Assembly: GCA_019973575.1 (NCBI GenBank)
Contig: BPUI01000001.1
Location: 2,864,342 to 2,928,341 of the forward strand
Reading direction: 5' to 3'
Length of the DNA stretch: 64,000 nt
From: Gemmatimonadetes bacterium T265
Lineage (GTDB): Bacteria > Gemmatimonadota > Gemmatimonadetes > Gemmatimonadales > Gemmatimonadaceae
This document shows, one piece after another, positions 24,801 to 56,028 of this stretch. The first letter of the stretch is position 1; each line of letters opens with the position of its first letter. The translations under genes were made by a program, and so were the position numbers. A model generated the notes under the pieces. The model worked only from the letters and a program-made list of their open reading frames with translations, did not search any database and was not told where the DNA came from.

Positions 24801-26174
24801 GTGATCCAGGGCAACCTGCACGGTAATCTGCTGCTGCTCGCCGCGGCCGCGGCCGTCGTCGCGCTCGTGCTGCTCATCGCGCGGCTCAAGCTGCACCCGT
24901 TCCTCGCGCTCCTCGTCGTCTCGCTCGCCCTCGGCGTCGCGGCGGGGATGCCGCTCGGCAAGATCGTCGCGTCGTTCGAGGCCGGGGCGGGCGGCGCGCT
25001 CGGGCACATCGCCGTCGTCATCGCGCTCGGCACGATGTTGGGCAAGATGCTGGCGGAGTCCGGCGGGGCGGAGCAGATCGCGCACCGCGTGATCGCGGCG
25101 TTCGGCGCGCGCCACGTCCACTGGGCGATGGCGTGCGTCGCGTTCCTCGTCGGCGTCCCGGTGTTCTTCGACGTCGGCCTCGTGCTCCTCGCGCCGGTCG
25201 CGTTCGACCTCGCCCGGCGCACCGGCGCGTCGATGGTGCTCGTCGGGATCCCGATGGCCGCGGCGCTCAGCGTCGTGCACGGACTCGTCCCCCCGCACCC
25301 GGCCGCGCTCCTCGCCGTGACCGCGTACCACGCCGACATCGGCCGGACGATGCTCTACGCGCTCCTCGTCGGCCTGCCGACGGCGGCGCTCGCGGGGCCG
25401 GTGTTCGCGCGGCTCGTCGCCCCCCACGTCGCCGCACGCGTGGGCCCCGCCGCCGGCGGCGCGCTCGGCGCGGAGCTCACCGAGGAGGCGCCGGCGACAC
25501 GGCGGGGCGCGCGGCCCGGCTTCGGTGTCACGGTGGCGACGGTGCTGCTGCCCGTCGCGCTGATGCTGCTCGGCAACGCGGCCGACCTCGTCGCGCCCGC
25601 CGGGAGCGTGCCTAACGGCCTGCTCCGGCTCGCCGGCACGCCGGCCGTGGCGCTGCTCGTCGCGCTCCTCGTCAGCTTCCGCACCCTCGCGGGGCGTTTC
25701 GACCGCGAGACGATCCTCCGCTACACGGGCGAGTGCCTCGGCCCCGTCGCCCCGGTGATCCTCGTCGTCGGCGCGGGCGCGGGGTTCGGGCGCGTCCTCA
25801 CGGACGGCGGCGTGTCGGCCGCGGTGGTCGCGCTCGCGACGCACGCCCGCGTGCCGCCGCTCCTCCTCGGCTGGCTCGTCGCCGCGCTGATCCGCGTCGC
25901 CACGGGCTCCGCGACGGTCGCGATGACGACGGCGTGCGGCATCGCCGCGCCGGTCGCCGCGCGCGCGGCGGGGGTCTCGCCGGAGCTGATGGTACTCGCC
26001 ACGGGCGCGGGCTCGCTCGTCCTCTCGCACGTGAACGACGGCGGGTTCTGGCTCGTGAAGGAGTACTTCGGGCTCACGGTGGCCGACACGCTCCGTACGT
26101 GGACGGTGTGCGAGACGCTCATCTCGGTCGTCGCGCTCGCATTGACGCTGCTGCTCGCGTCGGCGCTCGCATAG
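24801..26174 (+). CDS. GntP-family permease
   Basis: 457 residues and about 12 transmembrane segments; the N-terminal helix is LLLLAAAAAVVALVLLIARL. The family pattern is clear: HPFLALLVVSLALGVAAGMP, GGALGHIAVVIALGTMLGKM, GVPVFFDVGLVLLAPVAFDL and SVVHGLVPPHPAAL. The C-terminal half contains the repeat ATGSATVAMTTACGIAAP and SHVNDGGFW. GntP carriers are proton symporters for gluconate, and some relatives carry D-serine. Beside a D-aminoacylase, uptake of a D-amino acid derivative is plausible. The GTG at 24801 is the first usable start; no Shine-Dalgarno. Confidence 0.85.
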   Translation: MIQGNLHGNLLLLAAAAAVVALVLLIARLKLHPFLALLVVSLALGVAAGMPLGKIVASFEAGAGGALGHIAVVIALGTMLGKMLAESGGAEQIAHRVIAAFGARHVHWAMACVAFLVGVPVFFDVGLVLLAPVAFDLARRTGASMVLVGIPMAAALSVVHGLVPPHPAALLAVTAYHADIGRTMLYALLVGLPTAALAGPVFARLVAPHVAARVGPAAGGALGAELTEEAPATRRGARPGFGVTVATVLLPVALMLLGNAADLVAPAGSVPNGLLRLAGTPAVALLVALLVSFRTLAGRFDRETILRYTGECLGPVAPVILVVGAGAGFGRVLTDGGVSAAVVALATHARVPPLLLGWLVAALIRVATGSATVAMTTACGIAAPVAARAAGVSPELMVLATGAGSLVLSHVNDGGFWLVKEYFGLTVADTLRTWTVCETLISVVALALTLLLASALA

Positions 26175-26234
26175 TGCGGCCGCGGCGTGTGGTCGCGCAC
26201 GAGCGCCGGGGTGCTCTTGACAGGTGCCGCGATT

Positions 26235-26268
26235 TGCTGATAATTCAGCACCGCTGAAAAATCAGCGG
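26235..26268 (+). promoter_or_regulatory. Two palindromic operators of BlaI type
   Basis: TGCTGA-TAAT-TCAGCA at 26235-26250 and CCGCTGA-AAAA-TCAGCGG at 26251-26268 lie side by side, 46 bp before the blaI start. They also contain the most AT-rich stretch of the region and so overlap a likely promoter. BlaI repressors bind such dyads; this suggests autoregulation. Confidence 0.75.
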
Positions 26269-26313
26269 GCGCTTCCGGCCGTTGCACCGTCCGTTCACCC
26301 CGCGCGCTCCGCC

Positions 26314-26712
26314 ATGTATCAGCCTCCCGAACGCCCCGCCCTGTCCCGACGCGAGCAGCAGGTGATGGACATCCTCCATCGCCGCGGCGAGGCCACGGTG
26401 GCCGAGATCATGGCCGAGTTGCCGGATCCGCCGACGTACTCGGCCGTGCGGTCGGTGCTGCGGATCCTCGGCGAGAAGGCGTTGATCCGCTACAAGGAAG
26501 ACGGCCCGCGCTACGTCTACTACCCGGCCCAGGCGCCGGAGACGGCGCGGGAGACCGCGCTCGCCCATGTAGTGAGCACGTATTTCGGCGGCTCGCCCGA
26601 ACAGGCCGTGACCGCGCTCCTCCGCATGTCGGACGTCGACCTCGGCGACGCGGAGGTCGCGCGCCTGCGCGACGCGATCCGGCGCGCGCGCGAGAGCGAC
26701 CGCGGACGGTGA
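26314..26712 (+). CDS. BlaI/MecI-family transcriptional repressor
   Basis: 132 residues, normal length. The N-terminal winged helix reads LSRREQQVMDILHRRGEATV AEIMAEL, then TYSAVRSVLRILGEKALI and a YYPAQAP wing; the C-terminal dimerisation helices include FGGSPEQAVTALL. Members repress until a BlaR1-type sensor cleaves them. The next gene, encoding the M56 peptidase, starts within this gene's stop (GTGA), the classical blaI-blaR1 arrangement. The two palindromes upstream, and a half-match before the second HEAT gene, are probable binding sites. Confidence 0.9.
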   Translation: MYQPPERPALSRREQQVMDILHRRGEATVAEIMAELPDPPTYSAVRSVLRILGEKALIRYKEDGPRYVYYPAQAPETARETALAHVVSTYFGGSPEQAVTALLRMSDVDLGDAEVARLRDAIRRARESDRGR

Positions 26713-28781
26713 GCGCCATGCACACGGCATCGGTACTCCTCTTCCTCGCCAAGACGACGCTCGTCCTCGTCGCGGCGCTCGGCGCGGCGCGCGTGTTGGG
26801 CCGCGCCCCGGCCGGCGCGCGCCATGTTGTGTGGCTCGTGACGCTCGGCGCGCTACTCTTTGTGGTCCCCGCGCTCGCGGTCTGGGCGCCTCTACGCCTA
26901 ACGGTGTGGCCGGCGGCGGCCGTCCTGCCCGCGCCGGCTTCGGACAACCCGTCGCGTCCCGTCGCCGTGCACCGGAACGTGCCGGTAGGTGACGACGCAG
27001 CCTCCGCGATCGGCCGCGAACTCGAGACGCCATCCACGACGACGGCCCCGTCGTCCAGTCAGGCACTCGCAGCGCCGCGCGCGCCGGACGTGGGATCCGT
27101 CCTGCTCGCGCTCTGGGCCGCAGTCGCGCTCGGGATCGGCGCTTCGCTCGTCGGGTCGTGGCTCGCAGTGCGGCGCATCGTGCGGCGCGCGCAGCCCCTC
27201 GACGCGCCCGAGTGGCGTGATCCGCTCTGGGAGATCGCCGACCGGTTCGGGCTCGACGAACCGCCGCGTCTCGTGCGCAGCGGCGACGCGAACATGCCGT
27301 TCGCCTGCGGGCTCGGGCGGCCGACGATCGTCCTCCCGGCGGCGTGCGACGGCTGGACGCTCGACCGCCGGCGCGCCGTGCTGCTGCACGAGGTCGCCCA
27401 CGTGCGCCGGCGCGATCTCGCGGGGCACACGCTCGCGCGCGTGGTCTGCGCCGTCTACTGGTTCCACCCGCTGGTCTGGACCGCGGCGAAGCGCCTGCGG
27501 GCCGAGAGCGAGCGCGCCTGTGACGACCTCGCCCTCGCCTGCGGGGCGCGGGCGGCGGACTACGCCGAGCACCTGTTGGACATCGTGACGTCGGTGCGCC
27601 GCGACGCGACGCCGGGTGTCGCGCTCGCGATGGCGCGCCGCACCGAGTTCGAGGGGCGCATGCTCGACATCCTCGACCCCGAGCGGTCGCGCGCCACGCC
27701 CACCCGCCGGCAACTCGTGCCGCTCGTCGGCACGCTCGCGCTGGTGACGATCGTGGTCGGTGCCGCGGCGCCCGCGTCGGCGGCGCCGCACTCGACCGCA
27801 CCGCGGCCGCGCGACACGACGGTCGTCCCGCCGTCGACGCGCGCCGTGGCAGCGGGCACTCTGGCGGCGCGCGAACCGGCCGCGTCCGTCGCGCCCCGGG
27901 CGGCGCGACCCGGGCCGCCCGAAGCACCCGCCGCGCGTCCGGCCGCGTCGAGCGCGCCGGCCGCGCCGCGCGGCGCCTCCGACGCGCCGCCCGCGGCACC
28001 ACCGGCCAACGTCAACGCCGACGTCCCCCGCGCCCGCGCGCCGGAGCACACGCCGCCGGACGACACGCGCGCCGAACTGCTCGCGAGGGTGCTGCGCGCC
28101 GACACGAGCGCCTCGCTCCGCCGGATCGCGGCGTGGGGGCTCGCCGAGTACGCGAACGTCCCGGCCGCGGTCGCGGCGCTCGCGACCGCGGTCCGCGGCG
28201 ACCGCGACGCGGCCGTGCGCGAGACGGCCGCGTGGGCGCTCGCCGAGGCCGACCGGGACGCCGCGGCGCGCGACATGTTAGGCGCCGCGCTCCGGGCCGA
28301 CGCCGACGCGCGGGTGCGCGAGACCGCCGCGTGGGCGTTAGGCACCGCGGGGGACGCCGCCGCCGCCGCCGCGCTCGCGGCCGCGCTCGGGGACGCGAGC
28401 CCGGCCGTCCGCGCCGCGGCCGTCTGGGGGCTCGGCAGCGTCGGGCCGCACGAGGCGCCGCGCGCGCTCGTCGCCCTGCTCGCCGACCGCGACCCGAAGG
28501 TGCGCCGGCTGACCGCGTGGGCGCTGTACACGATCGAGGACCCGGCCGCGGTGCCGGCACTCCAGGCCGCGCTCCGGACCGAGGCCGACCCCGAGCTGCG
28601 GATCGCCTACGTCCGCGCCCTCGCCGCACTCGGCGAGCAGTCGGTCGACGCCCTGCGCACCCTGCTCGACTCGCCCGACGCGCGGATCAAGGCGGCGGCG
28701 GTCCGCGCGCTCGCCGGCGCGGGCGGGAGCGGGTTCGACCCCTGGCCGTGGCCCTGGCCCCGGCCGCGCCCGTTCCCCTGA
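26709..28781 (+). CDS. M56 (BlaR1-like) membrane peptidase fused to HEAT repeats
   Basis: 690 residues. Membrane segments at the N terminus (LLFLAKTTLVLVAALGAARV, VVWLVTLGALLFVVPALAVW, about 145-165) precede the M56 zinc metallopeptidase core with HEVAH at 227-231 and YWFHPLVW, then a further segment near 335-360. In BlaR1 this is followed by a beta-lactam-binding domain; here a Pro/Ala-rich linker (about 360-455) leads instead to four or five HEAT repeats (VRETAAWALGT, VRAAAVWGLGS, VRRLTAWALYT). It ends in FDPWPWPWPRPRPFP. Presumably it senses a signal through the HEAT part and cleaves the neighbouring BlaI repressor. The GTG at 26709 is coupled; ATG at 26718 is possible. Confidence 0.85.
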   Translation: MSAMHTASVLLFLAKTTLVLVAALGAARVLGRAPAGARHVVWLVTLGALLFVVPALAVWAPLRLTVWPAAAVLPAPASDNPSRPVAVHRNVPVGDDAASAIGRELETPSTTTAPSSSQALAAPRAPDVGSVLLALWAAVALGIGASLVGSWLAVRRIVRRAQPLDAPEWRDPLWEIADRFGLDEPPRLVRSGDANMPFACGLGRPTIVLPAACDGWTLDRRRAVLLHEVAHVRRRDLAGHTLARVVCAVYWFHPLVWTAAKRLRAESERACDDLALACGARAADYAEHLLDIVTSVRRDATPGVALAMARRTEFEGRMLDILDPERSRATPTRRQLVPLVGTLALVTIVVGAAAPASAAPHSTAPRPRDTTVVPPSTRAVAAGTLAAREPAASVAPRAARPGPPEAPAARPAASSAPAAPRGASDAPPAAPPANVNADVPRARAPEHTPPDDTRAELLARVLRADTSASLRRIAAWGLAEYANVPAAVAALATAVRGDRDAAVRETAAWALAEADRDAAARDMLGAALRADADARVRETAAWALGTAGDAAAAAALAAALGDASPAVRAAAVWGLGSVGPHEAPRALVALLADRDPKVRRLTAWALYTIEDPAAVPALQAALRTEADPELRIAYVRALAALGEQSVDALRTLLDSPDARIKAAAVRALAGAGGSGFDPWPWPWPRPRPFP

Positions 28782-28794
28782 CGCCGTAGCCCGG

Positions 28795-28823
28795 AGGGCG
28801 TCGGGCGCGTCCCGGCGCCCTTT
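28795..28823 (+). terminator. Terminator after the M56-HEAT gene
   Basis: An 11-bp stem (AGGGCGTCGGG with one G-T wobble) and a 5-nt loop, followed by TTTGT. Placed 13 nt after the stop codon. Confidence 0.7.
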
Positions 28824-28838
28824 GTCAGTCCCCTTAAT

Positions 28839-28850
28839 GCTGATTTTTCA
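28839..28850 (+). promoter_or_regulatory. Half-matching BlaI operator before the second HEAT gene
   Basis: GCTGATTTTTCA is identical to 12 bases of the complement of the palindrome at 26251-26268. The right half-site then changes to ACC. It lies 43 bp before the ATG at 28894, at promoter distance. Confidence 0.55.
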
Positions 28851-28893
28851 ACCTAGCGGGCGCGCCCGACACGGCGCGCTGATCGGAGGCGTA

Positions 28894-30333
28894 ATGAGGC
28901 GCATGCTTGCGGTACTCGCGACCGGCGCGGCCGCGGTCCTGTCCGGACCGACGACGTCGAATACGCACGGACTCCCGGCGGCAACGCCGGCCGACGCCGC
29001 CCCGCTACCCGACGTCGGCGCGCTGCTCGCCGCCGCGCGCGGCGCGCCCCCGGTGCTCTGCGCGCTCGCCGCACGCGCGGTACGCGGCGGCGGTTGGGGC
29101 CGTGGGTGGGGCGGCGCGGACGCGCCCGCCCCGCCACTCGGGGGCGCGCGACCGACCGTGTTCGACGATGATGACGACGAATCGGACCGCCTTCCGGACG
29201 CCGCCCGCGACCGCCTGTTCGACGGGCTCGCCTCGGACGACGCGTGCGTACGCGAGCTGTCGGCCCGCCTGCTCGGCCGGCGCCGCGACCCGGGCGTCGT
29301 CGCACCACTCACCGCGCGGCTTAACGCGCCGAGTGCAGCGCTGCGCGCGGCGGCGGCGATGAGCCTCGGTCTCGCCGCGCCGGCGAGCGCCGTCGACCCG
29401 CTCGTCCGCGCGCTGCCTGACGCGTCCCCCGACGTGCGCGCGAACGCCGCGTGGGCGCTCGGCCGCATCCGGGATGGGAGGAGCCTTGCGGCGCTCGTCG
29501 CGCACGTGGGCGACGACCAGGCGATCGTCCGCGAAGCGGTCGTCGAGGCGGTCGGGCACGTCGACTCGGCCAGCACCGCGGCGCTGCTCGCGCGGGTGCT
29601 CCGGCAGGACCCCGCGCCGAACGTCCGCCGCGTCGCCGCGTGGGCGCTCGGCCAGGGCAGGGCGCGACGCGAGGACGCCGCGCAGCCGGCCGCGCCGGTC
29701 GTCCAGACGCTCGCCGAGGCGCTCGCCGAGGCGCTCGCGCGCGACGCCGACGCCGGCGTGCGGGAGATGGCCGCGTGGGCACTCGGCGAGCGCGGGCGCC
29801 GCGGCGGCAGCGCCGCGGCCGCGCTCGTCACCGCGCTCCGCGGCGACGTGAGCGACGTCGTGCGCGAGACCGCGGCCTGGGCGCTCGGCGAGTCGGAGGA
29901 CCGCGGGAGTGCGGGCGCCGTGGACGCGTTAGGCTCGGCCGCCGGCGGCGACCGGAGCGCGCGCGTGCGCGGGTCCGCGGCGTGGGCGCTCGGGCAGTTG
30001 GGGCGGCGGACGGCGCCCCCGGGGCTCCTCCGCGCCGTGCGCGACGACGACGCGGACGTGCGACTCAAGGCCGCGTGGGCCCTCGGCGAGGTCGAGGACC
30101 CGGCCGCGCAGCCGGCGGTGCAGGCGGCGCTCGCCCGCGAGACCGACCCCAACGCGCGCCGAGCGCTCGTGCGCGCGCTCGTGCAGTCGGGGGGGCGCTC
30201 GGAACAGGCGCTCGCCGGACTGCTCGGGTCCGGCGACCCGCGGGTGCGCGAAGCCGCGGTGCGCGGGCTCGTCGGCCGGGACGCGTTCGACCCGTGGCCG
30301 TGGCCCTGGCCGCGTCCGCGCCCCTTCCCGTGA
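28894..30333 (+). CDS. Secreted HEAT-repeat protein with Trp/Pro tail
   Basis: 479 residues. The ATG at 28894 has GGAGG 4 nt before it. A signal peptide is plausible (MRRMLAVLATGAAAVLSGP). A Gly/Trp and Asp-rich segment (DDDDDES) is followed by at least eight HEAT repeats with the consensus VRxxAAWALGE (for example VRRVAAWALGQ, VREMAAWALGE, VRETAAWALGE, VRLKAAWALGE). The final 15 residues FDPWPWPWPRPRPFP are identical to those of the M56-HEAT protein upstream. The role is unknown; repeats and tail suggest that both proteins contact the same partner. An operator half-match upstream places it in the BlaI regulon. Confidence 0.85.
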   Translation: MRRMLAVLATGAAAVLSGPTTSNTHGLPAATPADAAPLPDVGALLAAARGAPPVLCALAARAVRGGGWGRGWGGADAPAPPLGGARPTVFDDDDDESDRLPDAARDRLFDGLASDDACVRELSARLLGRRRDPGVVAPLTARLNAPSAALRAAAAMSLGLAAPASAVDPLVRALPDASPDVRANAAWALGRIRDGRSLAALVAHVGDDQAIVREAVVEAVGHVDSASTAALLARVLRQDPAPNVRRVAAWALGQGRARREDAAQPAAPVVQTLAEALAEALARDADAGVREMAAWALGERGRRGGSAAAALVTALRGDVSDVVRETAAWALGESEDRGSAGAVDALGSAAGGDRSARVRGSAAWALGQLGRRTAPPGLLRAVRDDDADVRLKAAWALGEVEDPAAQPAVQAALARETDPNARRALVRALVQSGGRSEQALAGLLGSGDPRVREAAVRGLVGRDAFDPWPWPWPRPRPFP

Positions 30334-30401
30334 GGCGCCCGCAACGTTCCGCGCTGCCGGCCTGTCGAACGGCCGTCCTCCTTCTTCCCGCCAACGCCCT
30401 C

Positions 30402-32972
30402 ATGCGAGCCGCCGCCTGCCTCCTCGCCGCCCTGGTGCCGGCCTGCCTGACGTCCCAGACGCTGGCGCGCGACAGCGTCGACCGCGCCGGCGCGTCCCCG
30501 GCCGGCGCGACGGCAATCGTCGCGACGCACGCGGCGACGCCGCCCGTGATCGACGGCCGCGACGACGACCCCGTCTGGCGCGCGGCCCGGCCGGTCACCG
30601 ACTTCGTGCAGTGGCGCCCCACCGAGGACAAGCCGCCGCGCTTCCGTACCGAGGCCCGCGTCGCGTACGACGCCGCGAACCTCTACGTCTTCGTCCGGGC
30701 GTTCGACCCGCACCCCGACTCGATCATCCGCATCCTCGAGCGTCGCGACACGTTCACGCCGTCGGACATGATCTGGCTGTTCGTGGACTCGTACCACGAC
30801 CACCGCACCGGCTACGAGTTCGGCGTGAACGCCGCGGGGGTGAAGATGGACCAGGCCATCTACGACGACGGCCGCGAGGACCAGGCGTGGGACGGCGTCT
30901 GGGAAGTGGCGACGCGTATCGACTCGCTGGGTTGGGCCGCCGAGTTCCGCATCCCGCTCTCGCAGCTCCGCTACGGCCGCGCGCGCGAGCACACGTTCGG
31001 CCTCACGATCGACCGCGACATCTACCGCTACCAGGAGCGCGTGAGCTGGCCGATCATCCGCCAGAGCCGGCCGGGGTTCGTCTCGCAGTTCGGCGAGCTG
31101 CGGGGGCTCGTGGACCTCGAGACGCCGCGGCGCTTCGAGGCGGTCCCGTACCTCGTGGCGCGCGCCGCCAACCAGCTCCGCGACAACCGGTTCACCACGA
31201 CGCCGGGCGCCTCGGTCGGCGGCGACTTCCGCTGGCGCGTCGCCTCGAACGTGGTGCTCGACGGCACGGTCAACCCCGACTTCGGGCAGGTCGAGAGCGA
31301 CCCCGCGGTGCTCAACCTGAGCGCGTACGAGACCTTCTTCGACGAGCGCCGCCCCTTCTTCGTCGCCGGGCGCGGGCTGTTCCGCTTCGACGTCAACTGC
31401 AACGCCGTTAACTGTGAGGGCGAGGGGCTGTACTACAGCCGGCGCATCGGCCGCACGCCGCAGCTCGCCGGCACCTACGGCGACACGGTGCCCCAGCAGC
31501 CCACCACCATCCTCGGCGCGGAGAAGCTGATCGGCACGTGGGCGAACGGGCTCTCGTTCGGGGTGCTCGACGCGACCACGAAGCGCGCCGCGGGCCCGGC
31601 CGACACCACGTACGAGCCGCTCACCAACTATGCCCTCGCCCGCGTGCGGCAGGACTTCCGCCAGGGGGCGAGCTCGATCGGCGCGATCCTCACCGCGGTG
31701 AACCGCGGACACGACCGCTACGCGGCGCCCTACCTGACCTCGGGCGCGTACGCCGGCGCCGTCGACGCGCGCCACCGCTTCTGGCACGACGTGTTCGAGG
31801 TCTCCGGCTCGCTCGACCGCAGCCTGGTCACGGGGAGCCGCGCGGCGATCGCCGCCGTCCAGTCGGACGCGGTGCACTACTTCCAGCGCCCGGACGCGCG
31901 GTTCGGCTACGACACGACGCGCACGAGCCTAACGGGCGACGCCGAGGAGTTGCGGCTCGCGAAGGTGAGCGGACTCCACCTGAACGCGGAGACGAGCTAC
32001 CAGCGCCGCTCCGCAGGCTTCGAGGTCAACGACCTCGGCTACCTGCGCCGCGCCGACGAGCAGAGCTGGAACACGTGGGCGGGCTTCGCCGACCGGCACG
32101 CGCGCGGACTGTACAACAGCTTCCGCTGGAACAACAACTGGTGGCAGTACTGGACCACCGCGGGGCTGCCGCTCGAGCGCGCCTACAACACGAACGTCCA
32201 CGTCACGCTGCGCAACAACTGGGGCGTCCACACGGGCGGCACGTTAGGCCAGATCGGCACCACGTTCGACGACCGGGCGGCGCGCGGCGGCCCGGCGGTA
32301 CGCCAGGACCCGTACCTCTCGCCCTGGCTCTCGGTCGGCGGCGACGACCGGCGGGCGCTCGTGCCGTACTGGAACATGAACGCGTTCCGGGGGAGTGGGG
32401 GGCGCCACCGGCAGTGGAACGTCGGGCCGGAGCTCGACGGCAAGTTCGGCGGCCGGTTCAGCAGCGCGCTGAGCGTGAACTACTCGCGCAACGTGGACGA
32501 CGCGCAGTGGTACGGGAACTACGCCGACTCGGCAGGCGCCACGCACTACACGTTCGCCCACCTGGCGCAGTCGACGACCTCGGCCACGCTGCGGATGAAC
32601 TACACCTTCACGCCGACGGTGTCGCTGCAGGTGTACGCCCAGCCATTCATGTCGAAAGGCACCTATAGCGACGTGCGGCAGCTCTCGGCGACGCCGCGCG
32701 CGGCGGCGTACGCGGCGCGCTACGCGCCGTACGCGAACCCGCCGGTGACCGCGGATCCGGGCGGGTTCGACTTCCGGGAGCTGCAGTCGAACGTCGTGTT
32801 CCGGTGGGAGTATGCGCCAGGGTCGACGCTCTTCCTGGTCTGGAACGAGGGGCGGCTGGGGAACGCGCAGACCGAGGGGTCGACGACGTTCGGCGGGGAC
32901 GTGCGCGGGCTGCTCCGGCTGCACCCCGCGAACACCGTCCTGGTGAAGCTGAGCTACTACCTGAATCGGTGA
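30402..32972 (+). CDS. DUF5916 outer-membrane-type protein with CBM9-like domain
   Basis: 856 residues with a signal peptide (RAAACLLAALVPACL, cleaved before about residue 22). Residues 45-230 form a carbohydrate-binding module 9-like beta sandwich (VIDGRDDDPVWRAARPVTDF, RTEARVAYDAANLYVFVRAF, YEFGVNAAGV). The rest is a DUF5916 beta-barrel-like region with its hallmark LDGTVNPDFGQVESDPAVLN followed by FFDERRPFFVAG, and ends in LVKLSYYLNR, a C-terminal aromatic strand as in outer-membrane proteins. Such proteins are common in Gemmatimonadota and Bacteroidota relatives; substrate unknown. Separate promoter likely, 68 bp after the HEAT gene. Confidence 0.9.
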   Translation: MRAAACLLAALVPACLTSQTLARDSVDRAGASPAGATAIVATHAATPPVIDGRDDDPVWRAARPVTDFVQWRPTEDKPPRFRTEARVAYDAANLYVFVRAFDPHPDSIIRILERRDTFTPSDMIWLFVDSYHDHRTGYEFGVNAAGVKMDQAIYDDGREDQAWDGVWEVATRIDSLGWAAEFRIPLSQLRYGRAREHTFGLTIDRDIYRYQERVSWPIIRQSRPGFVSQFGELRGLVDLETPRRFEAVPYLVARAANQLRDNRFTTTPGASVGGDFRWRVASNVVLDGTVNPDFGQVESDPAVLNLSAYETFFDERRPFFVAGRGLFRFDVNCNAVNCEGEGLYYSRRIGRTPQLAGTYGDTVPQQPTTILGAEKLIGTWANGLSFGVLDATTKRAAGPADTTYEPLTNYALARVRQDFRQGASSIGAILTAVNRGHDRYAAPYLTSGAYAGAVDARHRFWHDVFEVSGSLDRSLVTGSRAAIAAVQSDAVHYFQRPDARFGYDTTRTSLTGDAEELRLAKVSGLHLNAETSYQRRSAGFEVNDLGYLRRADEQSWNTWAGFADRHARGLYNSFRWNNNWWQYWTTAGLPLERAYNTNVHVTLRNNWGVHTGGTLGQIGTTFDDRAARGGPAVRQDPYLSPWLSVGGDDRRALVPYWNMNAFRGSGGRHRQWNVGPELDGKFGGRFSSALSVNYSRNVDDAQWYGNYADSAGATHYTFAHLAQSTTSATLRMNYTFTPTVSLQVYAQPFMSKGTYSDVRQLSATPRAAAYAARYAPYANPPVTADPGGFDFRELQSNVVFRWEYAPGSTLFLVWNEGRLGNAQTEGSTTFGGDVRGLLRLHPANTVLVKLSYYLNR

Positions 32973-55176: not shown

Positions 55177-56028
55177 ATGAAGCACCTCATGCCTGCTGTC
55201 GCGGCCGTGGGAGTGGGAGTGTTCGCCGTCCCGGCGTTCGCCCAGTCGTCGTGCGACTCGCTCGCCCGTCCCCGCACGGCCGCGTACGCGGCGGTCGGCG
55301 CGCGGCACCAGGTGCTCGCCCCACGAGACGCGTCGCCGGCGGGCACGGCCCGCCTCACGACGCGCCGCGTCCGGATGGCGGACGGGAGCGTCCGGGTGCA
55401 GAAGTCCGTCACGAGGTCCGGCGTCCGCGTGAGCAAGGCGAAGCCGGGCGCCTGCCCGGTCGTTGCGGCCGCGCCGGCGACGACGTCCGACGGCGCCGTC
55501 GGCGACGTGGCGCCGACGCCCGCGCCGTCGGCGCCTGCGCCGGTCGTCGCCCCCGGTGAGGTCGTCGCGCCGATCCTCCCGACCGTCGGCGGCCGCGTCG
55601 GACTGCCGCTCCTCGCCGGTCTCCTCCTCGGCGGGACGGCGATCGCGGTCGGCTCCCACACGCCGACCAGCTCCACGACGACGCCCACCGCGGGCAGCGG
55701 GACCGGCGCGGGTGGTGGGACAGGGACCGGCGGCGGTACCACCGGCGGCGGCACCACGGGTGGCACCGGCGGCGGAACGGGCGGCACGGGGGGTACCGGC
55801 GGCGGTGGGGGCGGGACCGGTGGCGGCGGCGGTGCGGGCACCGGAGGGGGGGGCACCGGAGGGGGGGCCACCGGCGGCGGGGGAACCGGCGGAGGTGGGA
55901 CCGGGGGCGGCGGCACGGGTGGGGGGGGCACCGGCGGGGGAGGCACGGTCGTTCCCGAACCAACCACCGTCATGCTGACGCTCGGCGGCCTCGTCATGCT
56001 GGCCGGCGTCGCGCGCAGGCGGCGCTGA
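55177..56028 (+). CDS. PEP-CTERM exported protein with Gly/Thr-rich region
   Basis: 283 residues. A signal peptide (MPAVAAVGVGVFAVPAFAQ) leads; a Val/Ala-rich soluble part follows, then a central hydrophobic stretch LPLLAGLLLGGTAIAVG (about 145-162), a Gly/Thr-rich low-complexity region (about 175-255) of GGGGT-like units, and the C-terminal sorting signal VPEPTTVMLTLGGLVMLAGVARRRR, which matches the PEP-CTERM pattern (VPEP, hydrophobic helix, Arg tail). Such proteins are handled by an exosortase and linked to extracellular polysaccharide; no exosortase gene is in the window. ATG at 55177 chosen, as the signal starts there. Confidence 0.85.
   Translation: MKHLMPAVAAVGVGVFAVPAFAQSSCDSLARPRTAAYAAVGARHQVLAPRDASPAGTARLTTRRVRMADGSVRVQKSVTRSGVRVSKAKPGACPVVAAAPATTSDGAVGDVAPTPAPSAPAPVVAPGEVVAPILPTVGGRVGLPLLAGLLLGGTAIAVGSHTPTSSTTTPTAGSGTGAGGGTGTGGGTTGGGTTGGTGGGTGGTGGTGGGGGGTGGGGGAGTGGGGTGGGATGGGGTGGGGTGGGGTGGGGTGGGGTVVPEPTTVMLTLGGLVMLAGVARRRR

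Follow-up and report, generated by a model that had tools for sequence, protein, structure and literature searches.

A BlaI/M56 module of Gemmatimonadaceae with a HEAT-repeat sensor, a free HEAT protein bearing the same Trp/Pro/Arg tail and a candidate DUF5916 regulon

Switches of the BlaI/BlaR1 type turn on penicillin resistance in other bacteria, and most of what is known about systems that pair BlaI with an M56 protease concerns beta-lactam switches, PetRP being the copper case. The anatomy of BlaR1 has been described in Staphylococcus aureus, where the EL1 loop is displaced by the beta-lactam (PMC9834060), and the operator of BlaI, MecI and CopY is TACA-NN-TGTA (PMC7253601). PetRP mediates a copper response and controls plastocyanin and cytochrome c6 (PMC7896320). 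Here we describe a locus with a different sensor, a soluble twin of that sensor, an operator code of its own and a traceable regulon, in a phylum whose envelope biology has been little studied. The hosts are soil bacteria of the family Gemmatimonadaceae. No description of a system combining M56, HEAT and BlaI was found in the paper library searched, which leaves most subscription journals outside, and the locus is a real and conserved, apparently undescribed variant of the BlaI/M56 systems.

The genes of the locus lie on the plus strand of the window (the whole stretch of DNA analysed, 64,000 nucleotides long). The blaI gene (26314..26712) encodes a BlaI/MecI/CopY-family repressor of 132 residues, in which a profile search found Penicillinase_R (PF03965) at E 2.9e-24 (86 bits against a cut-off of 22.6). 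The following gene (26709..28781), whose GTG start overlaps the blaI stop codon, encodes a BlaR1-like M56 membrane zinc protease of 690 residues with a HEAT sensor (M56-HEAT); Peptidase_M56 (E 7e-33, 114.5 bits against a cut-off of 31) and HEAT_2 (E 4e-35) were found in this same protein. A paralogue of the sensor domain is encoded next (28894..30333), a HEAT-repeat protein of 479 residues with a signal peptide, predicted to be periplasmic, in which HEAT_2 reached E 1e-67. Beginning 68 nucleotides past the end of this gene, 30402..32972 encodes a DUF5916/CBM9-like protein of 856 residues, a predicted outer-membrane beta-barrel and a candidate output of the regulon. An earlier note on this DNA had described a BlaI-M56 locus, with the M56 protein joined to HEAT repeats and an exported HEAT protein encoded by the next gene. 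The profile search confirmed these genes and domains, and both a signal-peptide-like start and HEAT_2 were seen in the second HEAT protein; all three genes were borne out, but the DUF5916 gene behind them had been left out of that account. Elsewhere in the window, positions 55726-55946 form a GGCGGCACCGGC-type tandem array whose units measure 15, 30 and 45 bp.

The protease motifs of M56-HEAT are HEVAH at residues 227-231 and E268-R-A-C-D272, and H227, E228, H231, E268 and D272 are invariant in the M56-HEAT alignment. The structural model (mean pLDDT 69, pTM 0.40) has helices at residues 2-29, 35-66, 128-160 and 333-352, giving three N-terminal transmembrane segments and a fourth after the protease, followed by a disordered linker (about 353-450), a HEAT solenoid (about 453-668) and the Trp/Pro/Arg tail. 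The protein is predicted to comprise four transmembrane helices, a cytosolic protease and a C-terminal extracytoplasmic sensor, an order of parts that matches the anatomy of S. aureus BlaR1 (PMC9834060). The BlaR1 structure 8ext_A was among the structural matches of the model (E 3.7e-5). In the free HEAT protein the solenoid is longer than in the sensor and is accompanied by an additional conserved segment at the N-terminus; both HEAT parts would be periplasmic. HEAT solenoids are peptide-binding scaffolds, and the nearest folds in a structure search were generic solenoids, designed alphaReps and importins. Structure and sequence searches gave no specific HEAT ligand, returning generic repeat scaffolds only. 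In a quick tree of the HEAT parts, the 32 sensor HEATs and the 34 free HEATs were split across one branch, with moderate support for the dividing branches (72 and 92), and the tailless sister systems stood apart. This two-sided arrangement suggests that the twin arose once, is old, and that both proteins retained the tail.

Full-length relatives of the HEAT protein were found in about 35 genomes from more than 15 genera in a search of 179 Gemmatimonadaceae genomes, nearly always with M56-HEAT and blaI genes just upstream, and the same gene set was also present in other families of the order. Orphan tailed HEAT genes occurred at L051 (G016:C4:790000-801000) and L193 (G234:C55), with neither an adjoining blaI-M56 pair nor operators, which shows that the free HEAT protein can be maintained in the absence of this sensor. 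In two genomes the HEAT-type module is directly preceded by a further blaI-M56 pair of a different type (L017:814-3693 and L085:8-2827), which has no HEAT tail and ends in VNGDIVLNRASR. In the class-level relatives L197-L201 the M56-HEAT sensor has a tail rich in Pro and Arg (PRPQPRPRPRP...), its HEAT partner is short and tailless, and the GYTGA operator is absent; these sensor tails possibly represent an earlier state of the tail.

Both proteins of the window end in FDPWPWPWPRPRPFP, encoded on the plus strand at 28734..28778 in the M56-HEAT gene and at 30286..30330 in the free HEAT gene. The two coding stretches differ at 5 of 45 nucleotides, all synonymously, and the 90 nucleotides directly 5' of them are 31% identical without gaps. 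That the two proteins share their 15 final residues, as had been stated earlier, is correct and their sharing of a tail extends to relatives, but word-for-word identity is confined to this genome. Since the relatives' tails are alike but differ at a few positions, the exact identity in the window is an extreme local case of a trait of the family. At least five closing X-Pro dipeptides were present in 64 of the 65 tails read. Free HEAT tails carry Arg at dipeptides 2 and 3 and Trp at dipeptide 6 (33/33), and sensor tails carry Arg at dipeptide 2 (31/31) and mostly Glu, Gln or Asp, otherwise Arg, at dipeptide 3; taking all matching tails, Arg stands at dipeptide 2 in 64/64 and Trp at dipeptide 6 in 61/64. 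In the free HEAT protein conservation is highest in the tail (98% against 70% for the repeats, nine proteins), and in seven sensors the corresponding values are 84% and 71%.

A degenerate DNA pattern for the tail, run over the 179 genomes, located Trp-Pro tails on the M56-HEAT and HEAT genes only, and the spread over unrelated proteins that the earlier note had set against its own proposal failed to appear. The other matches of the pattern look like chance, the reversed pattern giving a similar yield. Among the matches rejected, those to WPRPRPRP in G132 and G142 were microsatellite-like and in other reading frames. As the best-conserved segment of its protein and one restricted to two genes, the tail can be ruled out as a chance or low-complexity product. 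In AlphaFold models it is without structure, at low confidence. Its conservation would fit a common partner bound by both proteins through the tail.

The blaI operon is preceded by a sigma-70-type promoter, TTGACA-16-GATAAT (26217..26244, plus strand), which matches at 11 of 12 positions and is the only such site in 26100-30500 (mean of 0.0 in shuffles). Its -10 lies inside dyad 1, GCTGATAATTCAGC (26236..26249), and beside dyad 2, GCTGAAAAATCAGC (26253..26266), which is 17 bp from dyad 1, so that two dyads cover or flank the -10 of a near-perfect promoter. Dyad 3, GCTGATTTTTCAAC (28839..28852), lies upstream of the HEAT gene. All are exact matches to GYTGAWWWWTCARC and are assigned to neither strand; these 3 matches in the window (0 expected by chance) are also the only sites in the whole 5.63-Mb genome, in which the reversed-pattern control gave 0. 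They account for the palindromes before blaI, and for the 12 bases recurring before the second HEAT gene, that the sequence had already brought to attention. This shared 12-mer, GCTGATTTTTCA, has one further copy in the genome, which was ruled out as an operator as it lies inside a coding sequence (by eye, that of a succinate dehydrogenase cytochrome b subunit). Between the M56 and HEAT genes, folding revealed a terminator-like GC hairpin with a short run of T behind it (28790..28826, plus strand); it falls below a strict terminator scan, and a similar hairpin stands ahead of the HEAT-gene dyad in most relatives. The combination of terminator-like hairpin and operator suggests that the HEAT gene has its own control point.

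This layout recurs in nearly every relative, with two dyads, usually 17 bp apart, before blaI and one before the HEAT gene. Tandem dyads were present in 23 of 31 genomes chosen as carriers of tailed genes and in 0 of 12 genomes without such genes (reversed control, 0); G016, which retains only the HEAT gene of the set, has no operator site. At nearly all loci TTGACA is fixed at -21 from the TGA of the first dyad (mean of 5.5 out of 6 matches, 27 loci), and no canonical -35 was found at this offset before the HEAT-gene dyad in the loci compared. The canonical BlaI operator, TACANNTGTA, was absent from the locus even when 1 mismatch was allowed. We infer that the dyads are bound by the BlaI of this locus.

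Across 20 genomes, exact operators were found at 17 places outside the locus. At 7 of these places a DUF5916/CBM9 protein is encoded by the next gene, an association for which chance is about 1e-12 given 2 to 12 family matches per genome; it is therefore not due to chance. Most of the dispersed DUF5916 promoters also have TTGAC upstream of the dyad. In addition, the gene immediately after the HEAT gene is a DUF5916 gene in the window and at L065, L066, L077, L084, L188 and L192, and the family is thus linked to the module along two independent lines. In the window the DUF5916 gene lacks a separate operator and would have to be transcribed from the promoter of the HEAT gene; its product is probably located in the outer membrane. 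No literature on DUF5916 was found in the same paper library. Genes for MacB-FtsX permeases, an M16 peptidase and a serine hydrolase of beta-lactamase fold are among those behind the other dispersed operators, and with 10 of 17 before other kinds of gene the theme of the regulon is loose. The regulon had first been proposed from the dyads of the window, and phylogenetic footprinting strongly supports it, with dyads before blaI and the HEAT gene and dispersed ones before DUF5916. Two individual sites may be mentioned: the operator-promoters of L113 (G054:C5:378129) and L112 (G030:C1:20436) are near-identical, with DUF5916 behind L112 and missing behind L113, and L114 (G022:C1:4323569, in a genome of 4,636,964 bp on a single contig) has its operator before a 245-residue protein matching no Pfam family.

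We consider it fairly probable that this BlaI/M56 module, by means of a sensor made of HEAT repeats and tail, controls an envelope regulon including DUF5916, and that the free HEAT protein damps the response as a decoy. The BlaI repressor would sit on the GYTGAWWWWTCARC dyads covering the -10 of its own promoter, on the single dyad before the HEAT gene and, in relatives, on those preceding DUF5916 genes at other places. Signal engagement by the HEAT-plus-tail sensor would lead the cytosolic zinc protease to inactivate BlaI, presumably by proteolysis as in BlaR1 systems. Three products would then rise: the sensor, its free periplasmic copy with the same tail, and the DUF5916/CBM9 outer-membrane protein. 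The free HEAT protein would most likely compete with the sensor for a common tail-binding partner, and the response would be damped. In proposing this we infer a signal, a partner shared by the tails and a negative direction of feedback. Because the free HEAT protein would be made from its own control point and would share tail and solenoid ligands with the sensor, a feedback decoy is the simplest reading, with a co-receptor as its main rival; the orphan HEAT protein of G016, which persists without the sensor, counts against a pure decoy.

As a co-receptor, the free HEAT protein would be the primary ligand-binding protein and, after taking up ligand or being released by an envelope partner, would dock on the sensor HEAT and activate the protease, with the tails mediating the docking or filling each other's grooves. 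The presence of HEAT repeats and tail on both proteins is consistent with this, as are the longer solenoid and extra N-terminal segment of the free protein and the fact that HEAT/ARM solenoids of nearest fold (importins, designed armadillo proteins) have grooves that bind extended peptides; given the free HEAT protein without this sensor in G016, however, we regard it as possible but rather unlikely. An equally tentative proposal is that the membrane-bound HEAT protein and its free counterpart together monitor either the condition of the outer membrane or a periplasmic peptide, by docking of the tail in each other's groove or in that of a common partner, and in this way determine how much DUF5916 is made. 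If true, such a mutually tail-docking HEAT pair would be a new sensing principle for BlaI/M56 systems. Alternatively, the tail may have no specific partner and serve as an anchor to the membrane or cell wall, or as an exopeptidase cap, on two envelope proteins of common descent, which would leave the regulon unchanged. Its low complexity, the XP-rich tails of other composition in class-level relatives (PRPQPRPRP) and the shared descent of the two HEAT parts would all suit this, but the composition is constrained at dipeptides 2 and 6, and a general anchor or cap would predict tails on other proteins, of which none was found in the 179 genomes; we find it rather unlikely.

Another possibility is that the tail acts as a pseudo-ligand, occupying the HEAT groove of its own chain or of a dimer partner until a Pro/Trp/Arg-rich peptide displaces it. 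The signal sensed would in that case be proline-rich antimicrobial peptides, which we assume the tail to resemble. The alternation of X-Pro with invariant Arg and Trp favours this idea, the displacement of EL1 by beta-lactam in BlaR1 provides a parallel (PMC9834060), and dispersed operators before MacB-FtsX and M16 genes would fit. We nevertheless judge it improbable, as the tail is unstructured in the low-confidence AlphaFold models and the MacB-FtsX and M16 targets are few, each in one or two genomes. The dyads could also be the site of another regulator, the BlaI of this locus being uninvolved: they are unlike the TACA-NN-TGTA operator of BlaI, MecI and CopY (PMC7253601), which is absent here. 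Yet their position is autoregulatory, their presence tracks this blaI gene across genomes and their tandem placement over the promoter resembles that of known BlaI and CopY operators (PMC7253601), making this reading very improbable. Returning to the BlaI-controlled regulon with a damping free HEAT protein, the locus offers a regulatory handle on DUF5916, and what the sensors detect becomes testable in cultured strains.

Among known proteins, PBS-lyase-type HEAT proteins (CpcE/F, NblB) and alphaRep scaffolds come nearest to the HEAT part in solved fold and in sequence, with scores far below curated cut-offs and the repeat type alone in common. The tailless M56-HEAT modules of Gemmatimonadota (L081-L083, L086, L087; also L197-L201, whose sensor tails are P-R-rich) likewise consist of blaI, M56-HEAT and a short HEAT gene and at L083 and L086 have DUF5916 next door, as in the window; unlike the window, they lack the Trp-Pro tail on the free HEAT protein and the GYTGAWWWWTCARC operator, and they form separate clades in the HEAT tree. 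Of the kinds already known, BlaI-BlaR1 and PetR-PetP come closest to the locus. The cyanobacterial PetR-PetP system also combines a BlaI-like repressor and a BlaR1-like protease with a signal other than beta-lactams and a small regulon, whereas a HEAT domain, a tail and a free sensor copy are unmentioned in the account of PetRP (PMC7896320); neither petE nor petJ was among the neighbour genes inspected. With BlaI-BlaR1 and MecI-MecR1 of Staphylococcus and Bacillus, the locus has in common a repressor beside an M56 membrane protease with HExxH and ExxxD motifs, as well as, by the model, four transmembrane helices with a TM2-TM3 loop, a C-terminal extracytoplasmic sensor and two dyads before the operon. 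A penicillin-binding sensor domain is absent from the protein (BlaR1 equivalog score of 76 against a cut-off of 400), and because the beta-lactam sensor and the TACANNTGTA operator are both missing, the locus is not a BlaR1 system proper. By analogy, it would work like one, but with a HEAT solenoid and Trp/Pro/Arg tail as its sensor instead of a penicillin-binding domain, a free second copy of that sensor, GYTGA-W4-TCARC instead of TACA-NN-TGTA as its operator and, as its associated output, DUF5916 in place of beta-lactamase.
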